Virus record (IMG/VR): IMGVR_UViG_3300042876_000446
Coordinates: 1-22,006 of that record
Reading direction: 5' to 3' (one strand)
DNA: 22,006 nucleotides
Origin: a virus
Positions within the stretch are counted from its first letter, which is position 1. Every line of letters begins with the position of its first letter. Below are positions 1 through 19,394 of the stretch, in pieces. A model generated the notes under the pieces. That model made no database searches and was not told the origin of the DNA. It was given only the letters and a program-made list of their open reading frames with translations. The translations under genes were made by a program, and so were the position numbers.

Positions 1-190
1 GCCCATCGTCCAATGTGACACGAAAAAGCGTGTCCACCCCTTTTTTGAACGGCACTTCCGCCAACCGCGGGACAAACCCGGTTTCTGTCAGCGCCAACAC
101 GGCATGCCGTTGTCCTCGCCTCATCAGTTCTTCAATCGGCGTCTGCTCTCCGGTGATGGGGTTGTAGATGCGCGTTCCTTTGGCAACACA
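1..190 (-). other. Intein N-terminal half inside the helicase P-loop (partial)
   Basis: Just after the extein sequence RRGYFIGDG (ends at 191) the giant protein turns into a Hint/intein start. Cys at 190-188 (residue about 3243) opens CVAKGTRI, a typical intein block A. It is followed by an acidic PIEEL stretch and by VTLDDG running into the window edge, which fits the approach to block B. Strawberry-notch-like helicases normally read GDGTGxGKG here, so the element sits between the Gly and the Thr of the Walker A motif, with Thr expected as the first C-extein residue. P-loops of ATPases are favoured intein sites. The rest of the intein, any homing endonuclease and the C-terminal splice junction lie left of position 1. 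Confidence 0.85.
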
Positions 191-3100
191 CCCATCACCG
201 ATGAAGTAGCCGCGGCGCTCTCCGCTCGGAAGAATCTGCTCATGCGCCTGCCCGGCATAAACGATGTTCTCCAGCGCCGTGAGGCTCAACCGCCCCTCGC
301 TGATAACTTCCTCGGGAAGATTCGGAGTGTAGGACGGGTCAGGCGGCAGCACGCTCGCCATGGCGGCACTCTCCACCAATTTAGCCGGGTGCGATTGCGC
401 CCCAGGAACCCGGACCTTGGCCGGCTCATACTCGGCAAAAATGTCGTCCTCGTTGACGATTTCGCGGCGCTCGGCCGCGGAAGCCCCCTCTACGCTGATG
501 CCGGTCTTACCAGCCGCGCCGCCGCTTCTTCCTCCCGATACAGGGCGCTGTCCGGGTTGCCCTTGCCCCCCTCCATCACCACTTGCAGCACCATTTCCCC
601 GGCTTCCGCCAGTGTCGGCGCTTCCGCCAGTTCCGCCGGCGTCAGATTGTCCGCCAGAATCGCTAGAAGCGCCTCCGGGTTGCTTTCCAGCCAATCCAGG
701 CGAACGGCCTCCGCGGCGTCCTCCGCCGCGTCTCGGTCTGCGAGTGCCGCCCACGCCAGTTGACACACCGGCATTTTGTCCGGTGCCCCCGGAGCCGCCT
801 TGAACTTCTGCAACACCGCTTCCGCCGCCTGATTCAGCGGGTGCGCCCTCGGTTGCGGGCTTTGTGGCGTTCGGTCGGTCATTTCTTACTCCCTCTAAGA
901 CAATACCGGCCCGAACCAAATCGTCAACCTCTCCCGTCACAGCCTGCTCGATTCCCGCCCCGGCCGGCGGCGCCACCTTGTCAATCACCAGAAGCCGGTT
1001 GCTGAAAGTCGTCCCATACTTGGCGTAATTCTTCCCGTCCAGCCACACATTTGCCCGCACATGGTATTTCTTGGCCACGCTGCGCCACCACTGGCGGAAC
1101 GTGGGAGCATTGAAGTCCATGCCTTCGCCCACGATGGCCACAAGGCGCCCGCCGGGCTCCAGGCTCGCCAGCGCCGCCAAGACGTGCTCGGCGCCGATCT
1201 TCGTATCTCCGCGCTTCCCGCTCTTGGCCGCGTTGCTGAACGGAGGATTCAACACCGTAACAGTCGGCCGCCGCAACTCCCCGCCACGCCACCGCGGGCC
1301 GAGGATGTTGTTCAACTTCTCGGCGTTCTCGCCAAAGAGGTAGTCAAACCCCATCTGCTTCAAGAACTCGCGCCGCCGCGGGGAAAGCTCGTTGGCAATC
1401 ACCGTTGCCCCCGCGTTCTTGGCAAACACAGCCAGGCCACCAATGCCGGCACTCGGTTCGAGCACCACATCGCCCGGTTGGATGTTCGCCACCCAATTCG
1501 CCAAGAAAGCCAGCGGCGGCGGCGTGCTGAACTGCTGCATGTCCACCGCTTCCTGTGTGCGCTTGCTCTGTGTCGGCAGTTTGGAAATCAACTCCTCCAA
1601 GCTGCGCAACCTGCGCTCAAACAAGTCGAAGCTGCTTGTTTGCGGAGAGACACCGGCCTTGGCCAAGTGCTGATTGACCGCCAGTTCCATGGCGTCGTAG
1701 GCGTCCTTGACGGTGTAGGTGCCATCCGCCTGCGTGCCGCCCCACGCCTCATCGGTGATGCGGAATAACTCGCGCCAATCGAAGGAGCGCCCTTCCTGAA
1801 TGAGCGCCTTGATGTCGTCGGCCGCTCGCTGCTGCGGCGTGTCCGCTTTCTCAGCGGTTGGCTTGTCCACATGCGTTGCCGCATTGTGTCCGCCCTCTGT
1901 GCTCGGAAGCTCCGCAATGGCTGCCAGGGCTTCGCGCACGGGCACACTGAGGCGCATGATGTCCACATCCCGGCCGGCGCCGTCCATGGCCAGCCATTGA
2001 TGGTGCCCGTCCAGAAGATAGCCGTCCGCGCTGACAAGAATCTTGCGCTGCGTGCCCTCCATGAGCGTGGTCGCCTTCTTGACCTTGGCCGGACTGTATT
2101 CGGCCTGCGTGGGCTTGAGCGTGTCCGGCGCCACCGTCTCGTTGCTGACGGTGATGCCCTTGGATTCGAGGAAGTTGACCAGCGCCCCGCGGGATTCGGC
2201 CGGAACCTGCGGCATGTCCTTCCGCGGAACGCCCAGCGTGCCGGACGACTCGGGGAAGTTCTCCCAGCCTTTTGCGGCGGGCGCTTCCTCTTTTGCGGGC
2301 GCCTCCGGCTTTTCCACCGGCGCGGTCGCCCCCGCATAGACCTCCGACCATTTCACTTGCTGGTCAGGGTCGCTGTTGCTGCCGTTGGCCCACACCTGAG
2401 AAAGCGTCTTCGGGATGATCCGTCCGGGGAACCGTTCCACCAGCGTCCGCGCCAAAGCTTCCGGCGTGTTCACCCCGCGACTCCAAAGCCCGTCAGCCAG
2501 CCGAGACATGGCCGCAATTGCCTCGGGCGTGGCCGCAACGGCAGCAATCGGGGCCGGCGCCGAGGCTGCCGCTACACCCTCCACCACGCGCACGGGAATC
2601 TTCGTCCACCCGGCCAGCATCGCCGCTTGTGCCGTGGCGTTGCCGTCAATAATCGTGAACGTGCCGTCTCCGTTGGCCGAAACATCCAGCGGCGCCCGCT
2701 TCTTGCCGGTCGGGTCGCCCTCGATGTTCTTCAGCATGCCCTTGATGGCCGTTTGCCGCGGGTCGGGCTTCAACCCGGCCAAGAACCTTGCATCCTGCAA
2801 CTCGTTCTTGCGGCTGATGAGGCTCGAAAGCGGCACCACGCGCACCCGGCCGTCCACCAAATCCCACTTGTCATAGGCAAACGCCTCTTTGATGGCATCC
2901 GGGTATTGCGCCAGCCGGCTTGCGTCCACATCGCCCGCGTAGTCGAAAATGTTGTTTTCCGAAATAATCGGTTGGCGGTCGGACCCCTCGGCGGTAGTGT
3001 CTTCTTGTATGGGTAACGACGAAACGAACGCGAAAGCCCTCTCGGTGGCGGATGCCGAGTTGCCCGATCCCTTGGAACTGCCCAAGGATGTTGATGATAT

Positions 3101-6100
3101 GTCCTCGGAAGACTGGACGGTGCTCAATGGGCTGATCCGCAAGTTTGCGGCTGCATCCGAATCTGCGGCGTAGGCTTCGCCAGATAGTTTGACGATTTGC
3201 CGCTCTGCTTTGCGGCGCGTCTTGTCCAAGGAAGACGCAGTAACCGGCGTTAGCCCCTCTTGATTCAGCCGCTTCTTGGCCTCGCGCCAAATGTCATACC
3301 ACTTGTGAATCGCTTTTTTGGCCCGAAGCATGGCCGGCTGAATAATCAGCACTTCCTTGACTACCGGATCAAGCCCTTCGCCATCTTTGACGAATTTCAA
3401 GTTGATGTCCTTGTAGCCAGGACCAACCTCGGCGTGCCTGTCGTAAATATCTGCCACGCCGCCCGGCGAATAGACCGTGTAACCTTTGGCTTCCATCGCC
3501 CCGATAAACCGCGCTGCCACCTGTCGCGCCGGCCCCGGCCCGCCCGCCGGAGCCTCCACCGTGGCCCGCAACAAGTCGCTTGGAATCTTGGGCGAGCGGT
3601 CAATTTTCGACACGGCCGTTCCCAGCTTCTTGACCGCGTTCCTGAACTGCTCCCGATACGGCCGGCCGCCTGCCTGACGTGCCGCATCCACCAAGTCGGC
3701 AAGAAATCCGTCGCGCTGTTTTAGCGCCTCGCCGTGAATGGCGCGCACCGCGTTCTTCAACTGTCCGCGCTGCGCCATGGGCACCGGAGCCGCGCCAGCC
3801 GGAGGCAAGAACTTCTCGAACTCCGCGAACAACGCCTCAAGTTCGGCGTCTGAGTCGGGTGCCGGAGCGTCAATGCTTTCGGCAACGGCCGGCTGCTGCG
3901 CCTCCGCGCCCCCCTGCGGCGCGTTTTCGGTGGCTTCCGCTGTCTCGACACCCGCGGGCTCCGCTGGCTTCCCTGCGGCCTCCAGGCGCGCAACCTCGGC
4001 CTCGATAGCCGCCGCCACGCCCTCGAACTCCGCCCGCTTCTCCGCGTCCAGCGTTCCAAGAAGCTCGTCGCGCAACCACCGCGCCACGTCCCGAAGCACG
4101 TCCGCAATCCGCGCCGCCAGCCCCGGATTGCTCGCCGCCACCGCGTCCACGGTCTGCGCCATGCCCACTTGCTCGTTGGTCGCGCCGTCCAGCTTCGCGG
4201 ACAGATACATGCGCCAGAACTCCATGCCGAGAACCGCGTCCGGCATGGTCGCCGCCGCCGCTTTCCAGTCGCCCCCGTTCTTGGTCAACTCCGCGGCGTG
4301 GTAGGCCATGACCACTTGCCGTTGCGCCTCCTCGGGCAATGCCTTCCAGTCGGTCGCCAGTTCTTCCGCCGACCGCACGTTGGCCGTGGCCCCGTGCAAG
4401 ACCTCCTCGCGCCATGTCGCCCGAATCTTGGCCTCGCGTTCCGCCGGTTCCAGGCCGGCCAAGTTCTGCGCCAGTGTCGCCCGGTCCACATAGACCGTGC
4501 CGCGGAAATACACCATACCGCCGCTCGGCATCGGACTGAACCCCTTGCGCTCGGCCGCCGGCATCCCCTGCAACTCCTGCGCCGTCACAACCCGCGTCCA
4601 ATCGGCGTTCACATGCAGACGATCCGTGGCCACCACCTTCAACGGCAGCTTCCCACTAAACGCCTCGGGAACCGCCGCGCCAAACATGCGCACCGCGGTA
4701 TTGCCGTTCACGGGCTCGGAGAAGACGGAACCGGACTTGGGCGCCGCGGGCTGCCAGTTTGCCGGAGATTCTTCCGGCGCTTTTTCCAGCGTGCTGGCCA
4801 GCATGTCATGCTGCACGCCATCCGGCGTTTGAACCACGGCCATTGCCCCTCCGTTGGTAAATCCAACAACGCGGCCAACCTGCGCCGGCCGCACGGTGCC
4901 CACACCGGGAACTTGCACCAAGTCGCCCTGCCGCACGTCCGGCCTTGCGGGCTTCGCCGCCGCCTTCTTGGCCTTGGGCGCCGCCTTCGGCTTCTTGGCT
5001 TTCGGCGCGGGTTTGGCTGCGGGTGTCTGCGCCGGCGCCAAATACGCATCCAAGGCCGGAATTGCCCCGGTTTCCCCAAGCTCTCGCGCCACCTGATACA
5101 CCCGCGCCATATTCACGAAAACGTCTCCGCCTTCCTCGCCACGCGCCACAAGGTCAGTCAGCGCCATGAACCGCGAAGCGCGTTCCTCGGCGTCCATTTC
5201 GCGGACCTCATCCATCGAAAGCACCGTCAGACGGCCTTTGCCGTCTTTCGCTCCGGTCGCCTGCTCGTCGTCGCGCAAGCTGCGGCCGGCGAACTTCCCA
5301 AAGTCGGCGGGCTTCGGCGCCTCCGCTTCTACCAATTTGCTACCAGTTTCCTGCTGATTGGTAGTTGCGGGCGCCTCGACCGGTGCCACCTGTCCGCCTT
5401 CCGCCGTTTCCTGAACAGGTTCTGGCGTCGTGTTGACCGCTTCGACAGGTTGCGCGACTCCCGGATCAACCGACAAGGATTCCTCGACGGTTCCCTCCGG
5501 CGCTTGGATCTCCTCAATGACAACCTCGCCGTCCGCCCCGCGCTGCAAAGACTTCACCCGCGCCCCGAAAAGCCTCTCCGCCGCCTCCCGGCTCGATGCC
5601 TGCCCGCTCTGCGTCACCGTCACCGGGCGCTTGCTGCCCTTCGGCGTGAAAACCATGCGCGCCCGCCACGTCCCAGGCCCGCCGGCCGCCGCGCCCCCCT
5701 GAACCGGCGTCACCGGCCCGCCGCCCTTCACCGGAGCCGCCGCCGGACCTTCCTCGCCGCCCTGCTGGCCCGCCTGCGGAGTCACCGGAGGCGCCACCAC
5801 CGGCGGAGTAACCGCCTGCTGAGTCTGCGGCGCGGCCTGCTGCACCACCGGAACCGGCTGCCCCTTCTCCTCCGCGGGCTTCTTCCCCTTCGCCGGAGCA
5901 ACCGGAGCCTGCGCTTGCTGCTGCTGCGGAGCCTGCCCCGGAACCACCGGAGGCGCCACAATCATGCTCTCCGCCTCCGCCTCGGCCAACTGATCCGCCT
6001 CGGTCTTCCCGAAATACACCTTCGCCGTTTCCGGCGCCACGCTTGCCACGGCTTTTCTGAACGAATCCGGCACGATGATCCGATTCCCGCGCACATACGC

Positions 6101-9100
6101 CCCCACGTTCAAAAGCGCCTGCTCCTGCGTCGGCGTCAGAGGCGTCAGGCTCACCATGCGAATGGCCGCGTCAATCGCCTCACGATCCGACTCCGCCACC
6201 CCACCCAACTCGTTCACCGCACGCCGCGCACCTTCCCCAATGCCCGCCATGTCGGCCAGGATGCTCGCATATTCGACCATCAACGCCTGCCGCTGCCCAG
6301 CCGCCGCCGAAATCTCAGGATTGACCACCTGTTGCGCCGGCCCGTTCCCCACCGTCTGCCACACCACCGGCGGCAACGTCTTCAGCTTCCGCGCCAACTC
6401 CGCGTCTTTCTCGACCACCGCCGCCAGCCGCCCCTTCAAATCCGCCACCGTCTGCGGATTCTGATACTCCTGCATGGTCTTGGCCTGCTCGTAGGTAATC
6501 GGCTCCTCGGGATAGCGCGTGTTGTGGTCCTCGACCCACTGTTTCAGCGCCTTCTCCTGCGCCCGCCGCATCTTTCCGATGTCGTATTGCGCCGCCGCCC
6601 AGCCGACCGCCGCATGCGGCCCGGCCATGCCCACGCCCCCGATGAACCCGGACAACCCCTGCGCCACCGCATCCCCCAGAGTCGCCCCACTCTGACCGAA
6701 AGCCGCAACCATTTCCTCAAACATCTCGCCGCCGCCGCTCGCCCACCCCTGCTTGGCAAGATCCACCGCCACGTTGCGCGCCTGCTGCCCGACCGTCAGT
6801 GTCCCGCCAATCGGCCGCTCGACCTTCCCCAGCTTGAAAAACTTCTCCGCCAGCCCGTCCAGCCGCGAAATCTCCCGCCCCGCACGGTTCAACGTCAGCC
6901 CCAGACGCTCCGCACTCCCCATCCATTTGCCCAAGGTCAGCAACTTGCCCGCACCAACGCCCGCCAACTGACTCGCCAGCTCAATCCCCATCTCCTGCAC
7001 CGGTGCCACCTGTCCGCCGTAAAATGCCTGCTGCAACGGCCCGAAGAATGACGACTCCGCAATTTTGCCGTTCTGCGAGGCATATTCCATCGCCTTGTGC
7101 TGAATCTCCAAATCGAACTGGCTGTTGAGCGCCGCCGCCTCAAACGCCGCCCAATAACTCGGGCTCAACGTCTGCTGATACGCCGCCAACGCCTGCCCCA
7201 TCTTGCTCCGCGGGTTGAGCAAGTCGTTCTCCCAAGTAAACCGCCCGCCGCCGCCCAAGGCATGGTAGTTGTCCAGCGCCGTCTTGATCCGCCCCGCCGC
7301 CGCCCGCAACTCAGGCTCGGTCATGCGCCCGCTATGCAACCCATCCTTGAACGCCGAAAGCTCTTTCTTGAGCGCGCTCCCCGTCTCCCCACTCCACATC
7401 TTGTCCCGCACCCCGCCCAAATTCCACAGATAGCTCGACGGCAACGCCATCAGCAACGCCTCGCCCACACTGTCAGGCATCCGGTCTTTCAGCGCCCGAT
7501 TGAAATTGTTCTGCCAGGCAATCGTCTGCGCCCCGATCAGCTCGCGCTCCGCATCACTCAGAAGTGGGCTGAACCCATACTTCTGCGCGATGTCGTCACC
7601 CAGCAACTTCACCGCCCCCACCCCCACACCCACCGAGGAACCATAGGCGTTCTGCAACGTGCTGTTCAGCCAGTTCTTGGCCCGCCCCACCAAGCTCTCG
7701 TCCGCCAGCAACTTGTCCCGCGCCGCAATGAACGCCGGCAAGTTGAAATCCACCTTCCGTTGCGCCTCCTGCGCATACTCGGCCATGAACGCCTCTCGCG
7801 CCGCGTAGTCGTTCACCGCCGCCACCCTCTCATGCTCGGACGCACCCAGCCCGGCAATCGCCTTCTCCAGCCCCGCCGGCAACACCGCCGCCGCCACGTT
7901 CATCAAGCCCCGCTTCCATGGGCTCATCTCAGGGTTGGCCGCCTGCGCCTTCCGATACGCCTCCGCCGCGTCACTCGTCCCGTTCTTCGCCCAATAGTTG
8001 AACGAGTCCTCCAGTGACGCAAACTCCGGCTTCGTCCCCCTCGCAATCTTGGCAAACATCCTCGCGTCCTGCGCGCTCAACTGACCGGTCTTGTGTAGCC
8101 AGTTCGTGTCCAACTCCCTCTGCGACGCATCAACCCCAGCCTGCCGCGGGTCAATCTGCGCAATGATGGCCGCCCTCTCGCTGTCCGTCGCCGCCTGCCA
8201 CTGATCCATCACGTCCCGCAACCGCTCCGCACCCCAGCGCCGCCCCGCCCATGCGTTCTCAGCCTCTTTCGCCCAGTCCTTCGCGTCCAACTCCTTGCGA
8301 ACCTCGGGCACCAACGGCGTGCTCCCGTAGGCCGACTTCTTGAACGCCTCCGCGAAATCCGCCGGCATCCCCACATACTCCGGCATCCCACGGTAATAGT
8401 TCCCCGCCGCAAAGCTCGGAGAATGCTGCCCCAGCGGATCCAACTCCAAATACCCCACCCCGTATTGGTCGAACTTGAACCGCCCAACAGGCTCGTCCAC
8501 CGTCTTCTTGCTCCACGGTAGCGGCACCCCCCAAAACTTCGATGATGTCTCCTTCGGCGCGTAGAGAACGCCCCCCTCCAACTTGTAGCCAGGCGGCGCC
8601 TGAATGTCCGTCTGCCCCGCCAACTTCGCGTTCAACTGCCGCTCCATCGCCTCCGGCGTGAACCACTCCGGCGGCGCGTGCGTGTAGCCCGTCGCCTTGC
8701 GCACTTCAGGCGGCAACGCAATCGGCGCCTCCGCAGACAGCTTGGCCGAAGCCGCCTGCTCCCGCCCGCGCATCCTCGCCGCCGTCCACTGATTGACACT
8801 CCCCCGCGTGGACATCGCATCCACAGACGCATCAAGCCCCTCCTCAATCGCCCGCCCCACCGCCGCGTCCTTGGCCTGAAACTCGTTCCAAAGCGTCTCC
8901 ATCAAGTCCGGTGGCGCCGGCTGAATCGGGCTGCTCGCCGGCTCAATCCCCGCCAGCGTCAACGCCATCTCCGAAATGTAGCCGCTCACCGCCGCCGTCC
9001 TCTCCGCCAACCGCCCCGTGTTCGGCAACGTCTCCGCCTCTTGGTAGATCAACTTCGCCTTGTCCGCCACGCTCTCCTTCAAAATGCTGTCCCGCCACGC

Positions 9101-9916
9101 CATCTGATTCCTCACATCAGACTTCGCCCGGTATGCCTCCAACTCCACTTGCGCCTGCCTCTCGACCTTCGCCTTCAACCCCCCCTCCAACTGCGCCTTC
9201 TCCTGCTCCAACGCCTCCCGCGCCGCCCCATCAACCGTGATGTCCTCCAACTTCCGGTCAATGTCCGCAATCCGCCCCCGGTCACTCGCAATGTCCCGCC
9301 CCAGCAAGCTCAACTCGCCCGTGGCCGCCGCCGCCTCCTCTTTCAACACCCGCGTCCGCTCCGCCAAGTTTGCCTTCAACTTCGCGTCCGGCTTCAGCTT
9401 CGCGTCAGGGTCGTAGCCCATCCACTTCCACGCCATGCCAGGCACCACCTTGTAAACGTGCCCATCCTTCTTGACCGTCTCCCCCGTCTCCTCAGGATCC
9501 TGCTCGATCAGCTTCCCATTGTCGTCCCGCACATACGCCTTGCCCGTCACCGGATCAAACATGGTCCCCGACTTGCCCCACTTGCGCATCGGCGCCCCAC
9601 TCGGCGCCGTAATCGGAACCACCGTGCCATCAGGCCGCGTGTAGAACCCAATCGCGTCCGTCTTGTATTCGCCCGCCTGACGCTTGTTGGCCCGCTCTCG
9701 ATCCCGCTCCAACGCCCTCTGCTCCCTCTCCGCACGCGCCAACGCCCTCTCCTGCTCCTTGGCCGCCTTCCCAGCCACCTTCTCCCCGTCCGCCGTAGGC
9801 ACAAACTCCCCGCGCTGCCAGTCCGCCAACCCCGACCGCATCAAATCCTGCCGCCGCTCGGCCTCATCACGGCCGCGGCTCATCTTCATCAGATCGTCTA
9901 GGGTGCGCGTCGCCAT
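1..9916 (-). CDS. Giant DarB-like polyvalent phage protein (3' end outside window)
   Basis: One uninterrupted reading frame starts at ATG 9916 and runs off the left edge: 3305 complete codons with no stop. I translated it by hand in one phase, and it stays protein-like almost throughout. Domain order: charged coiled-coil N-terminus (about 1-230); long Ala-rich region with Gly-rich hydrophobic stretches (to about 1300); Pro/Gln linker (about 1318-1413); Ala/Lys linker (about 1624-1658); a RelA/SpoT-like segment (about 2133-2216); two ParB-like domains; an N6-adenine methyltransferase; a Gly-rich linker; the start of a strawberry-notch-type helicase split by an intein. Methylase plus helicase in one huge phage protein is the DarB plan of phage P1, whose product travels in the virion and shields injected DNA from restriction. 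The start lies 4 bases after the previous stop; its ribosome binding site is weak. The virion role is inferred. Confidence 0.9.
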   Translation of the reverse strand, partial: MATRTLDDLMKMSRGRDEAERRQDLMRSGLADWQRGEFVPTADGEKVAGKAAKEQERALARAEREQRALERDRERANKRQAGEYKTDAIGFYTRPDGTVVPITAPSGAPMRKWGKSGTMFDPVTGKAYVRDDNGKLIEQDPEETGETVKKDGHVYKVVPGMAWKWMGYDPDAKLKPDAKLKANLAERTRVLKEEAAAATGELSLLGRDIASDRGRIADIDRKLEDITVDGAAREALEQEKAQLEGGLKAKVERQAQVELEAYRAKSDVRNQMAWRDSILKESVADKAKLIYQEAETLPNTGRLAERTAAVSGYISEMALTLAGIEPASSPIQPAPPDLMETLWNEFQAKDAAVGRAIEEGLDASVDAMSTRGSVNQWTAARMRGREQAASAKLSAEAPIALPPEVRKATGYTHAPPEWFTPEAMERQLNAKLAGQTDIQAPPGYKLEGGVLYAPKETSSKFWGVPLPWSKKTVDEPVGRFKFDQYGVGYLELDPLGQHSPSFAAGNYYRGMPEYVGMPADFAEAFKKSAYGSTPLVPEVRKELDAKDWAKEAENAWAGRRWGAERLRDVMDQWQAATDSERAAIIAQIDPRQAGVDASQRELDTNWLHKTGQLSAQDARMFAKIARGTKPEFASLEDSFNYWAKNGTSDAAEAYRKAQAANPEMSPWKRGLMNVAAAVLPAGLEKAIAGLGASEHERVAAVNDYAAREAFMAEYAQEAQRKVDFNLPAFIAARDKLLADESLVGRAKNWLNSTLQNAYGSSVGVGVGAVKLLGDDIAQKYGFSPLLSDAERELIGAQTIAWQNNFNRALKDRMPDSVGEALLMALPSSYLWNLGGVRDKMWSGETGSALKKELSAFKDGLHSGRMTEPELRAAAGRIKTALDNYHALGGGGRFTWENDLLNPRSKMGQALAAYQQTLSPSYWAAFEAAALNSQFDLEIQHKAMEYASQNGKIAESSFFGPLQQAFYGGQVAPVQEMGIELASQLAGVGAGKLLTLGKWMGSAERLGLTLNRAGREISRLDGLAEKFFKLGKVERPIGGTLTVGQQARNVAVDLAKQGWASGGGEMFEEMVAAFGQSGATLGDAVAQGLSGFIGGVGMAGPHAAVGWAAAQYDIGKMRRAQEKALKQWVEDHNTRYPEEPITYEQAKTMQEYQNPQTVADLKGRLAAVVEKDAELARKLKTLPPVVWQTVGNGPAQQVVNPEISAAAGQRQALMVEYASILADMAGIGEGARRAVNELGGVAESDREAIDAAIRMVSLTPLTPTQEQALLNVGAYVRGNRIIVPDSFRKAVASVAPETAKVYFGKTEADQLAEAEAESMIVAPPVVPGQAPQQQQAQAPVAPAKGKKPAEEKGQPVPVVQQAAPQTQQAVTPPVVAPPVTPQAGQQGGEEGPAAAPVKGGGPVTPVQGGAAAGGPGTWRARMVFTPKGSKRPVTVTQSGQASSREAAERLFGARVKSLQRGADGEVVIEEIQAPEGTVEESLSVDPGVAQPVEAVNTTPEPVQETAEGGQVAPVEAPATTNQQETGSKLVEAEAPKPADFGKFAGRSLRDDEQATGAKDGKGRLTVLSMDEVREMDAEERASRFMALTDLVARGEEGGDVFVNMARVYQVARELGETGAIPALDAYLAPAQTPAAKPAPKAKKPKAAPKAKKAAAKPARPDVRQGDLVQVPGVGTVRPAQVGRVVGFTNGGAMAVVQTPDGVQHDMLASTLEKAPEESPANWQPAAPKSGSVFSEPVNGNTAVRMFGAAVPEAFSGKLPLKVVATDRLHVNADWTRVVTAQELQGMPAAERKGFSPMPSGGMVYFRGTVYVDRATLAQNLAGLEPAEREAKIRATWREEVLHGATANVRSAEELATDWKALPEEAQRQVVMAYHAAELTKNGGDWKAAAATMPDAVLGMEFWRMYLSAKLDGATNEQVGMAQTVDAVAASNPGLAARIADVLRDVARWLRDELLGTLDAEKRAEFEGVAAAIEAEVARLEAAGKPAEPAGVETAEATENAPQGGAEAQQPAVAESIDAPAPDSDAELEALFAEFEKFLPPAGAAPVPMAQRGQLKNAVRAIHGEALKQRDGFLADLVDAARQAGGRPYREQFRNAVKKLGTAVSKIDRSPKIPSDLLRATVEAPAGGPGPARQVAARFIGAMEAKGYTVYSPGGVADIYDRHAEVGPGYKDINLKFVKDGEGLDPVVKEVLIIQPAMLRAKKAIHKWYDIWREAKKRLNQEGLTPVTASSLDKTRRKAERQIVKLSGEAYAADSDAAANLRISPLSTVQSSEDISSTSLGSSKGSGNSASATERAFAFVSSLPIQEDTTAEGSDRQPIISENNIFDYAGDVDASRLAQYPDAIKEAFAYDKWDLVDGRVRVVPLSSLISRKNELQDARFLAGLKPDPRQTAIKGMLKNIEGDPTGKKRAPLDVSANGDGTFTIIDGNATAQAAMLAGWTKIPVRVVEGVAAASAPAPIAAVAATPEAIAAMSRLADGLWSRGVNTPEALARTLVERFPGRIIPKTLSQVWANGSNSDPDQQVKWSEVYAGATAPVEKPEAPAKEEAPAAKGWENFPESSGTLGVPRKDMPQVPAESRGALVNFLESKGITVSNETVAPDTLKPTQAEYSPAKVKKATTLMEGTQRKILVSADGYLLDGHHQWLAMDGAGRDVDIMRLSVPVREALAAIAELPSTEGGHNAATHVDKPTAEKADTPQQRAADDIKALIQEGRSFDWRELFRITDEAWGGTQADGTYTVKDAYDAMELAVNQHLAKAGVSPQTSSFDLFERRLRSLEELISKLPTQSKRTQEAVDMQQFSTPPPLAFLANWVANIQPGDVVLEPSAGIGGLAVFAKNAGATVIANELSPRRREFLKQMGFDYLFGENAEKLNNILGPRWRGGELRRPTVTVLNPPFSNAAKSGKRGDTKIGAEHVLAALASLEPGGRLVAIVGEGMDFNAPTFRQWWRSVAKKYHVRANVWLDGKNYAKYGTTFSNRLLVIDKVAPPAGAGIEQAVTGEVDDLVRAGIVLEGVRNDRPNATKPATEGAPAESGGGSGVAEVQGGSGGTGQNAGVSTGVGGTRRPRRGGGRRGGRSPGLAGKQPGGASSDSGGQSDAGGTGGSADTGGSRGNGAASGDGGGQGQPGQRPVSGGRSGGAAGKTGISVEGASAAERREIVNEDDIFAEYEPAKVRVPGAQSHPAKLVESAAMASVLPPDPSYTPNLPEEVISEGRLSLTALENIVYAGQAHEQILPSGERRGYFIGDGCVAKGTRIYNPITGEQTPIEELMRRGQRHAVLALTETGFVPRLAEVPFKKGVDTLFRVTLDDG
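188..480 (-). other. Strawberry-notch-like helicase N-terminus (domain of the giant protein)
   Basis: Residues about 3146-3242 hold the conserved lead-in of Sbno-type superfamily 2 helicases found in phage and plasmid polyvalent proteins: a PHP-like HPAKLVESAAMA segment, PPDPSYTPNLP, then IVYAGQAHEQ and LPSGERRGYFIGDG, which leads into the Walker A loop. The order and spacing match what I know of this family. The ATP-binding Lys, the DEAD-like box and the second RecA domain should follow the intein outside the window. Confidence 0.8.
490..882 (-). CDS. Overprinted 130-residue protein nested in the giant gene
   Basis: A complete ORF of 130 codons starts at ATG 882 and ends in TAG at 490. It lies wholly inside the giant gene but in another frame. 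A clear GGGAG Shine-Dalgarno sequence lies 6 bases before the ATG, one of the best in the window. The product is acidic, Ala/Leu/Glu-rich and predicted helical, with segments such as LDWLESNPEALLAILADNL. Most of its codons end in G or C (GCG, CTG, CCG, GTG), the local habit. The giant frame here reads a Gly/Ser-rich low-complexity linker with much poorer third-position bias, as a shadow frame would. I recognise no family. It could be an anti-defence or virion accessory made by internal initiation. A product of frameshifting from the methylase is the alternative. Confidence 0.55.
   Translation of the reverse strand: MTDRTPQSPQPRAHPLNQAAEAVLQKFKAAPGAPDKMPVCQLAWAALADRDAAEDAAEAVRLDWLESNPEALLAILADNLTPAELAEAPTLAEAGEMVLQVVMEGGKGNPDSALYREEEAAARLVRPASA
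930..1560 (-). other. N6-adenine DNA methyltransferase domain of the giant protein
   Basis: Residues about 2786-2996 carry an amino-methyltransferase: FSTPPPLAFLA (motif X-like lead-in), LEPSAGIGGLA (motif I, S-adenosylmethionine binding, about 2818-2829), an acidic NELS after strand 2, and NPPFS (motif IV, N2890-F2893), the catalytic motif of N6-adenine methylases. A C-terminal GTTFSNRLLVIDK strand completes the fold. In DarB-like proteins this domain precedes the helicase, as here. It may methylate incoming DNA. All core motifs look intact. Confidence 0.85.
1920..2110 (-). other. ParB-like domain 2 of the giant protein
   Basis: Residues about 2603-2666 read KILVSADGYLLDGHHQWLA, with the hallmark DGHH (D2636) of the ParB/sulfiredoxin-like nuclease fold, preceded by the usual strand and followed by a helix and IMRLSVPV. 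ParB-like modules of this kind recur in phage polyvalent proteins and are proposed nucleases or CTPase-type DNA-binding domains. Activity cannot be told from the sequence. Confidence 0.65.
2580..2870 (-). other. ParB-like domain 1 of the giant protein
   Basis: Residues about 2349-2446 look like a second ParB-type unit. VRVVPLSSL begins it, and FTIIDGNATAQAAMLAGW followed by IPVRVV ends it. The usual DGHHR is DGN (D2424), so the first His of the motif is replaced. A tandem arrangement with a canonical copy downstream suggests duplication followed by divergence, or two separate acquisitions. Confidence 0.6.
3009..3173 (+). CDS. Possible antisense small protein (54 residues)
   Basis: On the plus strand, opposite the giant gene, ATG 3009 opens a 54-codon frame ending in TAG. 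A longer version could begin at ATG 2949. The product is acidic and soluble, contains SSEDWTVLNGLIRKF and reads like a real helical protein. The giant frame over the same bases is a Ser/Thr-rich low-complexity linker, as expected if it were the passive partner. I see no Shine-Dalgarno sequence and every other gene runs the other way, so this may be an inverted insert or chance. Confidence 0.2.
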   Translation: MGNDETNAKALSVADAELPDPLELPKDVDDMSSEDWTVLNGLIRKFAAASESAA

Positions 9917-9920
9917 ATGG

Positions 9921-10946
9921 TCAAACTCGTGCAGTAATGGGAATGGTAATGCCTCCGCGCTTGAAGAAGCCGACTACCTGACGGTTGCTGGCCTTGCGCT
10001 TTTTCTTCTCCTCGTCAGTTTCACCCTTCTCGGCGCTGGGCACGAACGTATCGCCCTCCATCGAGCCCACCTTCTTGCCGTCCTTCCACACTTCCGGCGC
10101 CTTTGCCTTGGCATCCTTGCGCCCCGTGTCCAAATACTCGCCCGTCCCCTTGTTGTAGGGCCTGCCGTCCCTGTAAACCAACTGATCCAGCCTGCTGAGA
10201 GCTTCGTCGCTCACCCCAATGCCGGACGAATCCCCACCATTGCCCTCGCCCTTGTTGATGGGCTGCCCCGGCTTGCGCCGGTCAAAAAAGATGTCCTTGG
10301 CGTTCCGCATCCCCTCGGCATCCAAAGTCTTTCCGGCCCTACGCGCACTCTCCTCCCGGTCCCGGCTCTCAATGCGCCGGTCGCGCACCTTGTTGGCCGC
10401 CCTCGCCGCCGCATTCAAAGGATTGCCCGCCTTGTCGAACCTCGCCGGCTCTTGACCGCCCACCCCGCGCCCACCACGCCCACCCCTCGGCTGTGACTGA
10501 CGCTTGGCCGCATCTCGCGCTTGCTTATCCCGCGCTGCCGCGTTCAACGCCGCCGCTTGTTGCGCCTCATACTGCGCATCCTCCTGATCCCCACGCCGCC
10601 GGGCTGTCATGGCGCTTTGCTCGTCCTTCCTCTGCTGCGCCTCCGCCTGCTGGTCGCTGTATCGCTTGTCCGCGGTCGCCTTCTGATCGTTGTATCGCCG
10701 GTTGTCCTCCTCGAACCGCTCCCGGTCGGTCACCTGATTCGGGTCAGTCCCCTGCAACGGCGCCCTCGCCGACGCGGGCGCAATGTTGCCCCCCGCATCA
10801 AGGCCGATACTCTTCAACCGCTCCAACGCCACAGGATCCCCGGATGAGGCTGCGGCAGCCAACACGCGGGCCTTGGTCTGATCCCCCTGCGGATTGTAGG
10901 GGTATTCATTCGCGTTCGGCAGTGGAAGGCGGTCAAAAGGGCTCAT
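9921..10946 (-). CDS. Disordered, highly charged phage protein (341 aa)
   Basis: I do not recognise a family. The start MSPFDRLPLPNANEYPYNP is followed by a long hydrophilic region rich in Gln, Asp, Arg and Ala (RYNDQKATADKRYSDQQAEAQQ is typical), so largely helical or coiled. Next comes a Gly/Arg-rich patch (PRGGRGGRGVGGQEP), then a basic RxxR-rich segment. The tail contains a YRDGRPYNKGTGEY motif and a VWKDGKKVGS strand. There are no signal peptide, membrane segment or catalytic motifs. It ends 4 bases before the start of the giant gene, so the two are probably co-translated. The composition fits a virion-internal or scaffold-like protein made with the giant protein; this is inference only. 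Confidence 0.75.
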   Translation of the reverse strand: MSPFDRLPLPNANEYPYNPQGDQTKARVLAAAASSGDPVALERLKSIGLDAGGNIAPASARAPLQGTDPNQVTDRERFEEDNRRYNDQKATADKRYSDQQAEAQQRKDEQSAMTARRRGDQEDAQYEAQQAAALNAAARDKQARDAAKRQSQPRGGRGGRGVGGQEPARFDKAGNPLNAAARAANKVRDRRIESRDREESARRAGKTLDAEGMRNAKDIFFDRRKPGQPINKGEGNGGDSSGIGVSDEALSRLDQLVYRDGRPYNKGTGEYLDTGRKDAKAKAPEVWKDGKKVGSMEGDTFVPSAEKGETDEEKKKRKASNRQVVGFFKRGGITIPITARV

Positions 10947-18158: not shown

Positions 18159-19394
18159 CTACTGCAAAAGTTCGGTCAGGAGCACGCGAAAAGCTCGCTC
18201 TGCGGTTGCGGGGACGACTCCGTTTCCGAGCAATCGCAACTCATCGGTGCGATTGTCACAGGAGACGCACAACTCGGCATAGTCCATCCCACGGGCAGGC
18301 CCATGAGGGTTTCGACCCATCGGGGGTTGAGTTTGCCCGCCTGCTGCCTCTCGACCATCGGCGTGAGTTCCTTGTATTCCCGGTCCTGGTTGCCCCTGCC
18401 GCTCTTGTGGTCGCGTGCTGTTGGGGCGCCCCATTGTTCCTCCCTCCACACTTGCGTTGCTATGCTTTCCCCTCCGCGATTGTCGTTCCAATGTTCCCCG
18501 TATTCCGGGTGCATTGATGCCATTGCACTTCGCGGGGTCGCCCAAGCCTTCACCGCACCCGCCAGATACACCCCTTGATTCCCGTTCGGGCCGCTGCTCT
18601 CCATGTCGGGCGTGTGCGCGGTGATTGTGGGCCACAACTCTCGGCGGCTCCCATCCGTGCTGCTGCTCGCCGGGGCGGGCGGGCCATGCTTGACCGCATG
18701 ATGCAGCTTGATCTGCTTCTTGCTCGGATTGTTCGGGTCGCCCGTTGTTGAGCGGCCACCGTTGGGAACATCCGGCGTCGGCCAGCTTGCCATTGCCGCC
18801 ATCGTCCCCAACGGAATCGAATTGCGCTCCAGTTGTGATTTGCCGACCGAGTTCTTTGATTCGTTGACGCTGATCGTGGGCCAAGATGAACACCCGCTTG
18901 CGTTGGTGCGGTGCGCCGACTTCACTCGCGCTGAATATGCCCCACGTCGCTCTGTAACCCATTCCTGCCAAGTCTTGCAGGACGTTGCGAAGGCCGAGGG
19001 TAATGTGTCCTTCAACGTTCTCGAAGAAGCAGAGCCGGGGTCGCATGGCAGCAATTCCGGTTGAAATAGCTGACCAGAGGTGGCGGGGGTCGTCTGCTCC
19101 GAGTCGCTTGCCTGCTGCGCTGAAAGGTTGGCAGGGATAACCGCCAGAGAGGATGTCCACTCGTCCGTGAAACGCTGCGAATGGGAAGGTTCGCAAATCA
19201 GGCCAGAGCGGAGCCGGGTCAAGTTGCCCGCCTTCCATGCGCGCAAGAAGTAGCTCGCACGCGAAGGCTTCGATCTCTGAGTAAGCGACCGTGCGCAAGC
19301 ATGGGATGCATCGGTGCAATCCGAGGTCAATGCCTCCGTATCCGGCACAAAGGCTGACGTGCGTAATTGGGCGGGGAGTATCCACATTGCTCAC
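18159..19394 (-). CDS. C5-cytosine DNA methyltransferase
   Basis: This 411-residue protein carries the ordered C5-methylase motifs: I, SLCAGYGGIDLGL (14-26); IV, GGYPCQPFS with catalytic C88; VI, FFENVEGH (E125); VIII, QRKRVFILAH (164-173); and X, LLGNGVVPATAERAF near the end. Between VIII and X lies a long hydrophilic stretch with few hydrophobic residues (about 180-380), which should be the target-recognition part but is low-complexity. The start is taken as GTG 19394; GTG 19385 is possible. A second open frame, +1 relative to this, covers nearly the whole gene and contains a motif IX-like segment missing here. It probably protects phage DNA from host restriction. No cognate restriction gene is visible. 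Confidence 0.88.
   Translation of the reverse strand: MSNVDTPRPITHVSLCAGYGGIDLGLHRCIPCLRTVAYSEIEAFACELLLARMEGGQLDPAPLWPDLRTFPFAAFHGRVDILSGGYPCQPFSAAGKRLGADDPRHLWSAISTGIAAMRPRLCFFENVEGHITLGLRNVLQDLAGMGYRATWGIFSASEVGAPHQRKRVFILAHDQRQRIKELGRQITTGAQFDSVGDDGGNGKLADAGCSQRWPLNNGRPEQSEQEADQAASCGQAWPARPGEQQHGWEPPRVVAHNHRAHARHGEQRPERESRGVSGGCGEGLGDPAKCNGINAPGIRGTLERQSRRGKHSNASVEGGTMGRPNSTRPQERQGQPGPGIQGTHADGREAAGGQTQPPMGRNPHGPARGMDYAELCVSCDNRTDELRLLGNGVVPATAERAFRVLLTELLQ
18176..19387 (-). CDS. Overlapping second frame of the methyltransferase (403 codons)
   Basis: ATG 19387 opens a 403-codon frame, +1 to the methyltransferase and ending just before its stop. From about residue 169 it reads like a methylase target-recognition region: repeated W(P/A)T units (SSWPTISVNE, ASWPTPDVPN, ELWPTITAH, KAWATPRSAM), then APTARDHKSG and LNPRWVETLMGLPVGWT (18283-18333). 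That last phrase resembles motif IX (LTxREaARLQGFPDxF) of C5 methylases and the end of known phage methylase-related proteins. The first 160 residues are mostly a shadow. Either both frames are expressed, or a frameshift joins the frames, or the conservation simply reflects that of the overlapping gene. Confidence 0.4.
   Translation of the reverse strand: MWILPAQLRTSAFVPDTEALTSDCTDASHACARSLTQRSKPSRASYFLRAWKAGNLTRLRSGLICEPSHSQRFTDEWTSSLAVIPANLSAQQASDSEQTTPATSGQLFQPELLPCDPGSASSRTLKDTLPSAFATSCKTWQEWVTERRGAYSARVKSAHRTNASGCSSWPTISVNESKNSVGKSQLERNSIPLGTMAAMASWPTPDVPNGGRSTTGDPNNPSKKQIKLHHAVKHGPPAPASSSTDGSRRELWPTITAHTPDMESSGPNGNQGVYLAGAVKAWATPRSAMASMHPEYGEHWNDNRGGESIATQVWREEQWGAPTARDHKSGRGNQDREYKELTPMVERQQAGKLNPRWVETLMGLPVGWTMPSCASPVTIAPMSCDCSETESSPQPQSELFACS

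Follow-up and report, generated by a model that had tools for sequence, protein, structure and literature searches.

The DNA methylase M.EcoHK31I is made of two chains, of which the smaller is encoded in an alternative frame inside the gene for the larger; both proteins are required, and the small chain is far shorter than the large one. The enzyme is a two-polypeptide C5 methyltransferase that acts on the sequence YGGCCR (Lee et al. 1995, cited in PMC3404938), and, as described in PMC3404938, its large polypeptide carries motifs I-VIII and X and its smaller polypeptide motif IX only. A different division is found in M.AquI, where catalytic motifs I-VIII are located on one chain and the distal recognition region, together with motif IX, on the other (PMC3404938).

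The stretch of DNA analyzed here, hereafter the window, comprises positions 1 to 22,006 of the IMG/VR virus record IMGVR_UViG_3300042876_000446 (22,006 nucleotides in all) and contains a methyltransferase gene in which the main frame, alpha, is accompanied over nearly its whole extent by an open +1 frame, beta. As judged from sequence comparisons, beta is, with a probability of roughly 80%, a separate protein that serves as a recognition and motif-IX subunit and completes the catalytic domain of alpha, so that the two together would constitute one C5 methylase. Elsewhere in the window, positions 1-9950 of the minus strand hold a frame of more than 2,000 uninterrupted codons, which apparently continues past the left end of the record. 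The only stop in this frame between 3800 and 10100 lies at its upstream boundary, and the long plus-strand open reading frames in 1-9950 look like its antisense shadows.

Two frames in one methyltransferase gene

The alpha frame (18159..19394, minus strand) encodes the large, catalytic subunit of a C5-cytosine methyltransferase, identified by Pfam and phrog profile searches (PF00145, 5.8e-33; phrog_363, 7.6e-55), an AlphaFold model and Foldseek. Read from a GTG at 19394 it is 411 aa long, and read from a GTG at 19385, the conserved one, 408 aa; it terminates at a stop codon at 18159-18161. A preliminary description of this DNA had placed motifs I, IV, VI, VIII, and X in the main frame, and all five are confirmed in the sequence. 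Motif I, LCAGYGGIDLGL, responsible for SAM binding (19317..19352, minus), falls in near-invariant columns of the homologues. Motif IV, GGYPCQPFSAAG (19110..19145, minus), contains the catalytic Cys within an invariant P-C pair, and it is followed by motif VI, FFENVEG (19008..19028, minus), with an invariant N-V, and motif VIII, QRKRVFILA (18879..18905, minus), with an invariant R-K-R. Motif X, RTDELRLLGNGVVPATAERAF (18189..18251, minus), which reads RTDELRLLGNGVVP in the alpha frame of the window, is present in alpha in 90/92 homologues and in beta in 0/92. Motif IX, canonical or of the type seen in beta, is absent from the alpha frame of the window and of 92/92 homologues. In the AlphaFold model, residues 1-186 and 379-408 are folded into a large domain and residues 190-378 are predicted with low confidence; Foldseek matches this model to HhaI, HaeIII, and DNMT1. 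Of the features of a C5 methyltransferase, alpha shows motifs I, IV, VI, VIII, and X as well as the fold of the large domain, and lacks motif IX and a confidently folded recognition domain (190-378) in the same chain.

The +1 frame had been described as open for 403 codons with the strand left unstated. It is open for exactly that length on the minus strand, the strand of both frames, from an ATG at 19387 to a stop at 18176-18178 (18176..19387), and encodes a 403-aa protein with almost the same extent as alpha. This protein is supported by profile matches, homologues, and selection: the phrog_1008 family, labelled DNA methyltransferase, is matched by beta of the window at 1.4e-22 and by 66/66 of the beta homologues tested. 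Close to its N-terminus lies a segment under selection, residues 25-72 (19172..19315, minus); in shorter nested relatives the match to beta begins near residue 62-86, and residues 25-72 are outside those matches. A variable region with WPT/WATP-like units, residues 169-322 (18422..18883, minus), is a candidate target-recognition region. The WPT-like units already remarked upon in the preliminary description are indeed found in this frame, at residues 169, 202, 252, 282, and 319, and the number of such units between residues 169 and 322 varies from 0 to 6 across homologues.

Toward the C-terminus, residues 352-369 of beta (18281..18334, minus) form a motif IX-like stretch, KLNPRWVETLMGLPVGWT, marked out by selection across residues 313-372 and by its spacing to motif X. 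The earlier observation that such a sequence occurs in the +1 frame and is missing from the main frame extends to the homologues, 81/92 of which carry the pattern in beta and 0/92 in alpha. Modelled alone, beta gives a poor AlphaFold prediction (pLDDT 48.7), compatible with a chain in need of its partner for folding and equally with a chain that has no fold. The beta profile found no match among solved structures, and the homology of its IX-like motif to canonical motif IX therefore rests on pattern, spacing, and fused relatives.

The two frames begin at overlapping start codons, ATGTG (19383..19387, minus), composed of the beta ATG and the alpha GTG. Comparison of homologues shows the overlap of starts to be conserved in 87/92, as ATGTG in 57/92 and as ATGNNATG in 30/92. 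A second alpha GTG, located at 19394 and 7 bases upstream of the beta ATG, is present in the window and in some homologues. In many homologues a single Shine-Dalgarno-like sequence, recognized by eye in the sequence listing and unscored, precedes both starts; no clear Shine-Dalgarno sequence was found ahead of the starts in the window.

Conservation and selection of both frames

Taken alone, the window has 2 stops in the +1 frame within the bounds of the main gene, compared with a mean of 4.75 after codon shuffling that keeps the main-frame protein (P = 0.065). The open frame is unusual and inconclusive on this basis, and it is the homologues that decide. Scans of viral contigs returned 43 loci with the beta query and 80 with the alpha query, about 120 related loci in all, and in every one of them a beta homologue is encoded, at an identical offset, by a +1 frame that stays open along the methylase; the +2 frame of those loci contains about 8 to 35 stops. 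For 79 genes less than 85% identical, shuffling of synonymous codons with preservation of the alpha protein predicts about 372 internal +1 stops, and 1 was observed (1, 0, and 0 in the N-terminal, middle, and C-terminal parts, versus 202, 143, and 27 expected), with stops in the +2 frame occurring as expected by the shuffle. Relatives that retain motif X with stops scattered through the +1 frame, to which the preliminary description had pointed as evidence against a coding frame, were sought and not found.

When the shuffle instead preserves beta, the alpha frame shows 4 stops versus about 934 expected (0, 0, and 4 in the N-terminal, middle, and C-terminal parts, versus 389, 464, and 81), a count made on 79 genes that had been picked as open alpha frames. 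Among 96 distinct beta spans collected without this filter, an alpha stop occurs in one only (L124). That single in-frame stop, at L124:3565, is located shortly past motif VIII, with motif X downstream and beta intact, and represents a true truncation or a sequence error.

In the N-terminal half, raw identity in the +1 frame is no higher than in single-coding neighbor genes, so that plain similarity is not evidence there, and raw identity was dropped as a line of evidence. Since comparisons of fourfold sites and codon positions are confounded by incomplete divergence, selection was read from conditional identity and from an OLGenie-style dN/dS-like test, in which changes are sorted by their effect on each frame, with bootstrap ranges and with neighboring single-frame genes of the same loci as controls. 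A codon-level test on both frames had been proposed in the preliminary description, and its outcome is that the +1 frame is coding. Across residues 313-372, which include the motif IX stretch, beta dNN/dNS is 0.24 (0.21-0.26) versus 0.64 (0.58-0.71) in the controls, and alpha is neutral (dNN/dSN 1.10). Across residues 373-400, containing motif X, alpha dNN/dSN is 0.08 and beta resembles the control. Both frames are selected over residues 25-72, where beta dNN/dNS is 0.41 (0.37-0.45) versus 0.64 in the control and the alpha value is 0.32, and alpha alone is selected over residues 73-132, which hold motifs IV and VI and where beta shows nothing beyond the shadow of alpha.

The map of conditional identity returns the same mosaic, with residues 169-204 and 313 onward selected chiefly in the beta frame, and adds a conserved patch in the middle of alpha, WPARPGEQQHGWEPPRVV (18633..18686, minus). 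In this patch the main-frame residue is the same, given an unchanged beta residue, at 0.91-0.95 versus about 0.6 in controls, and main dNN/dSN is 0.23; no other part of the middle of alpha is clearly selected in the alpha frame. About 90 distinct phage genes related to this one have both frames maintained by selection.

An open +1 frame might also be a by-product of G+C-rich codon use combined with strong conservation of the methyltransferase, a reading with which the P value of 0.065 for the window alone and the equality of raw N-terminal-half +1 identity with that of single-coding control genes agree. It is scarcely credible for the family as a whole, in which 1 stop stands against about 372 expected at a third-position G+C (GC3) of about 0.55, a relative in Phage C75C1 maintains a +1 frame of 460 codons at 48.5% G+C, the overlapping starts are conserved, and the beta frame is selected at 0.24 where the main frame is neutral. 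A chance open frame through codon bias is ruled out by the homologue stop counts and the selection on the beta frame.

Gene arrangements in relatives and the readings of beta

Relatives of the two frames occur in fused, tandem, and nested form. In Mycobacterium phage Phasih (L166), motifs I-VIII, a TPQARDYKG unit, LHPAFPEWMMGWPAGW, and LRIIGNGVVPQ are all found in a single chain. In the Mycobacterium phage PeterPeter (genes 79/78, L160) and the Streptomyces phage Samora (genes 34/35, L164), adjacent genes form the tandem halves of a split enzyme, and both members of each pair are already named DNA methylase or methyltransferase. Paenibacillus phage Likha (51/52) and Escherichia phage K1G (gp34/gp35) have a shorter beta that lies within alpha in the +1 frame, and existing annotation names each of the two nested frames DNA methyltransferase; in these phrog_1008 pairs beta has about 230 codons and starts inside alpha, whereas beta of the window spans all of alpha. 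Motif X is located in the beta frame, downstream of motif IX, in L129 and in the Alicyclobacillus locus L134. Across fused, tandem, and nested relatives, the motif-IX stretch and the WPT-like units of beta therefore behave as the recognition half of a methylase, in whichever frame or gene they are encoded. Between the IX-like proline and motif X lie 21.67 codons in 78/80 two-frame loci and 16-20 codons in single-chain relatives. The two-frame arrangement is not a general property of C5 methylases, since the annotated single-chain methylases L163 and L169 are without a beta frame and L162, L163, and L170 have a canonical motif IX. On a plasmid of Paenibacillus bovis (L168, 1504-3125), a nested alpha/beta methylase without annotation precedes a second beta-like piece, which has a motif-IX-like sequence of its own.

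The mosaic of conservation and selection in both frames, the overlap of the starts, the distribution of the motifs, and the arrangements in relatives are direct observations. We infer in addition that both proteins are translated and associate, that the resulting complex methylates DNA, and that recognition of the target falls to beta. Ribosomes would initiate at the beta ATG or at the overlapping or neighboring alpha start, and a single initiation region would thereby yield two nearly coterminal proteins. Alpha would provide the SAM-binding catalytic domain with motifs I-VIII, closed by motif X, and a middle that would be mostly linker, and beta would provide the motif-IX element, probably most of the target-recognition region with its WPT-like units, and the N-terminal segment. 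Association of the two would give one working methylase, which would probably serve to modify phage DNA against host restriction. The low model confidence of alpha residues 190-378 is in line with a missing part that beta would supply, and is not proof of it.

The preliminary description had offered two mechanisms for the +1 frame, a frameshift into and out of it or a separate protein, either of which was proposed to change target specificity. Programmed frameshifting would produce a single-chain enzyme through a +1 shift after motif VIII, translation of the recognition region plus motif IX from the beta frame, and a -1 shift before motif X. Such a chain would have its parts in canonical order, with motifs I-VIII from the main frame, recognition and IX from the +1 frame, and X again from the main frame; the constant spacing of 21.67 codons between IX and X agrees with it, and Phasih (L166) is an existing single-chain relative. 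Each frame, however, stays open where it would be dispensable under a double shift, which disfavors this mechanism: upstream of the entry point the +1 frame has 1 stop versus 202 expected and is selected at beta residues 25-72, and between the two shifts the main frame has 0 stops versus 464 expected and retains a selected patch (WPARPGE..WEPPRVV). The beta start codon is conserved, and in relatives the halves are separate genes, either tandem or nested. Near the exit point, slippery heptamers, suggested earlier as something to look for, are not conserved and occur in 4/69 loci only. Neither a conserved slip site nor an unread frame free of selection, the hallmarks of programmed frameshifting, was found here. 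Frameshifting in and out is thus improbable, and the separate protein is the better of the two proposals.

Beta could also be a separate protein with some other role, for example as an inhibitor, a regulator, or a counter-defence factor, overlapping a methyltransferase that is sufficient by itself. Its lack of a confident fold when alone and of a solved relative would be compatible with such a role, as would the selection on an N-terminal segment that lies outside the matches of the shorter nested relatives. A self-sufficient alpha is difficult to reconcile with the lack of motif IX in 92/92 homologues and with a middle region modelled at low confidence, and an unrelated function for beta with a motif-IX-like element whose spacing to motif X is canonical and with relatives whose beta parts are fused to a methylase or bear motif X (L166, L160, L164, L129, L134). 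Another role for beta is accordingly considered unlikely. For beta as the partner subunit of alpha, the data fit an obligatory half of one enzyme better than a switchable second specificity. More tentatively, the ATGTG region may have the function of making both halves of an obligate two-chain enzyme, such that their ratio is fixed and assembly can take place on one messenger, with the N-terminal segment of beta as a new domain that arose by overprinting of the catalytic motifs.

Comparison with known methylases

Few long overlaps on one strand have both frames demonstrably under selection. The present family adds about 90 distinct cases in which a mosaic of selection can be read, and the accompanying relatives, single-chain, tandem, nested, and coextensive, illustrate how overlaps of this kind can come about. 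Annotation of phage methylases usually keeps one frame, which suggests that half of an enzyme may be missed; cloning of the annotated gene alone could consequently yield an inactive protein.

The fold adopted by alpha residues 1-186 and 379-408 in the model resembles the large domain of M.HhaI and M.HaeIII, enzymes in which, unlike in the window, motif IX and the recognition region belong to the same chain. M.AquI differs from the window in carrying motif X on its small chain, whereas motif X of the window is on alpha; only the distant relatives L129 and L134 place IX and X together on the small chain, resembling the division of M.AquI. With M.EcoHK31I, as described in PMC3404938, the window shares a large chain with motifs I-VIII and X and without IX, and a motif IX on a second polypeptide. 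In the window as in M.EcoHK31I, the second chain is encoded in an alternative frame, here the +1 frame and coextensive with alpha. The window differs from M.EcoHK31I in that its beta is as long as alpha, has an overlapping start codon, and contains WPT-like units and, in addition, a selected segment at the N-terminus, and in that the gene belongs to a phage, with no restriction enzyme recognized adjoining it. A literature search returned no report of a coextensive two-frame methylase, which does not exclude that one exists. The principle is known from M.EcoHK31I; what is new is the near-total overlap, the shared start site, the additional N-terminal segment of beta, and the wide extent of the family. 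Alpha and beta resemble the two halves of one enzyme, and the arrangement in the window resembles a very extended form of a rare known one.
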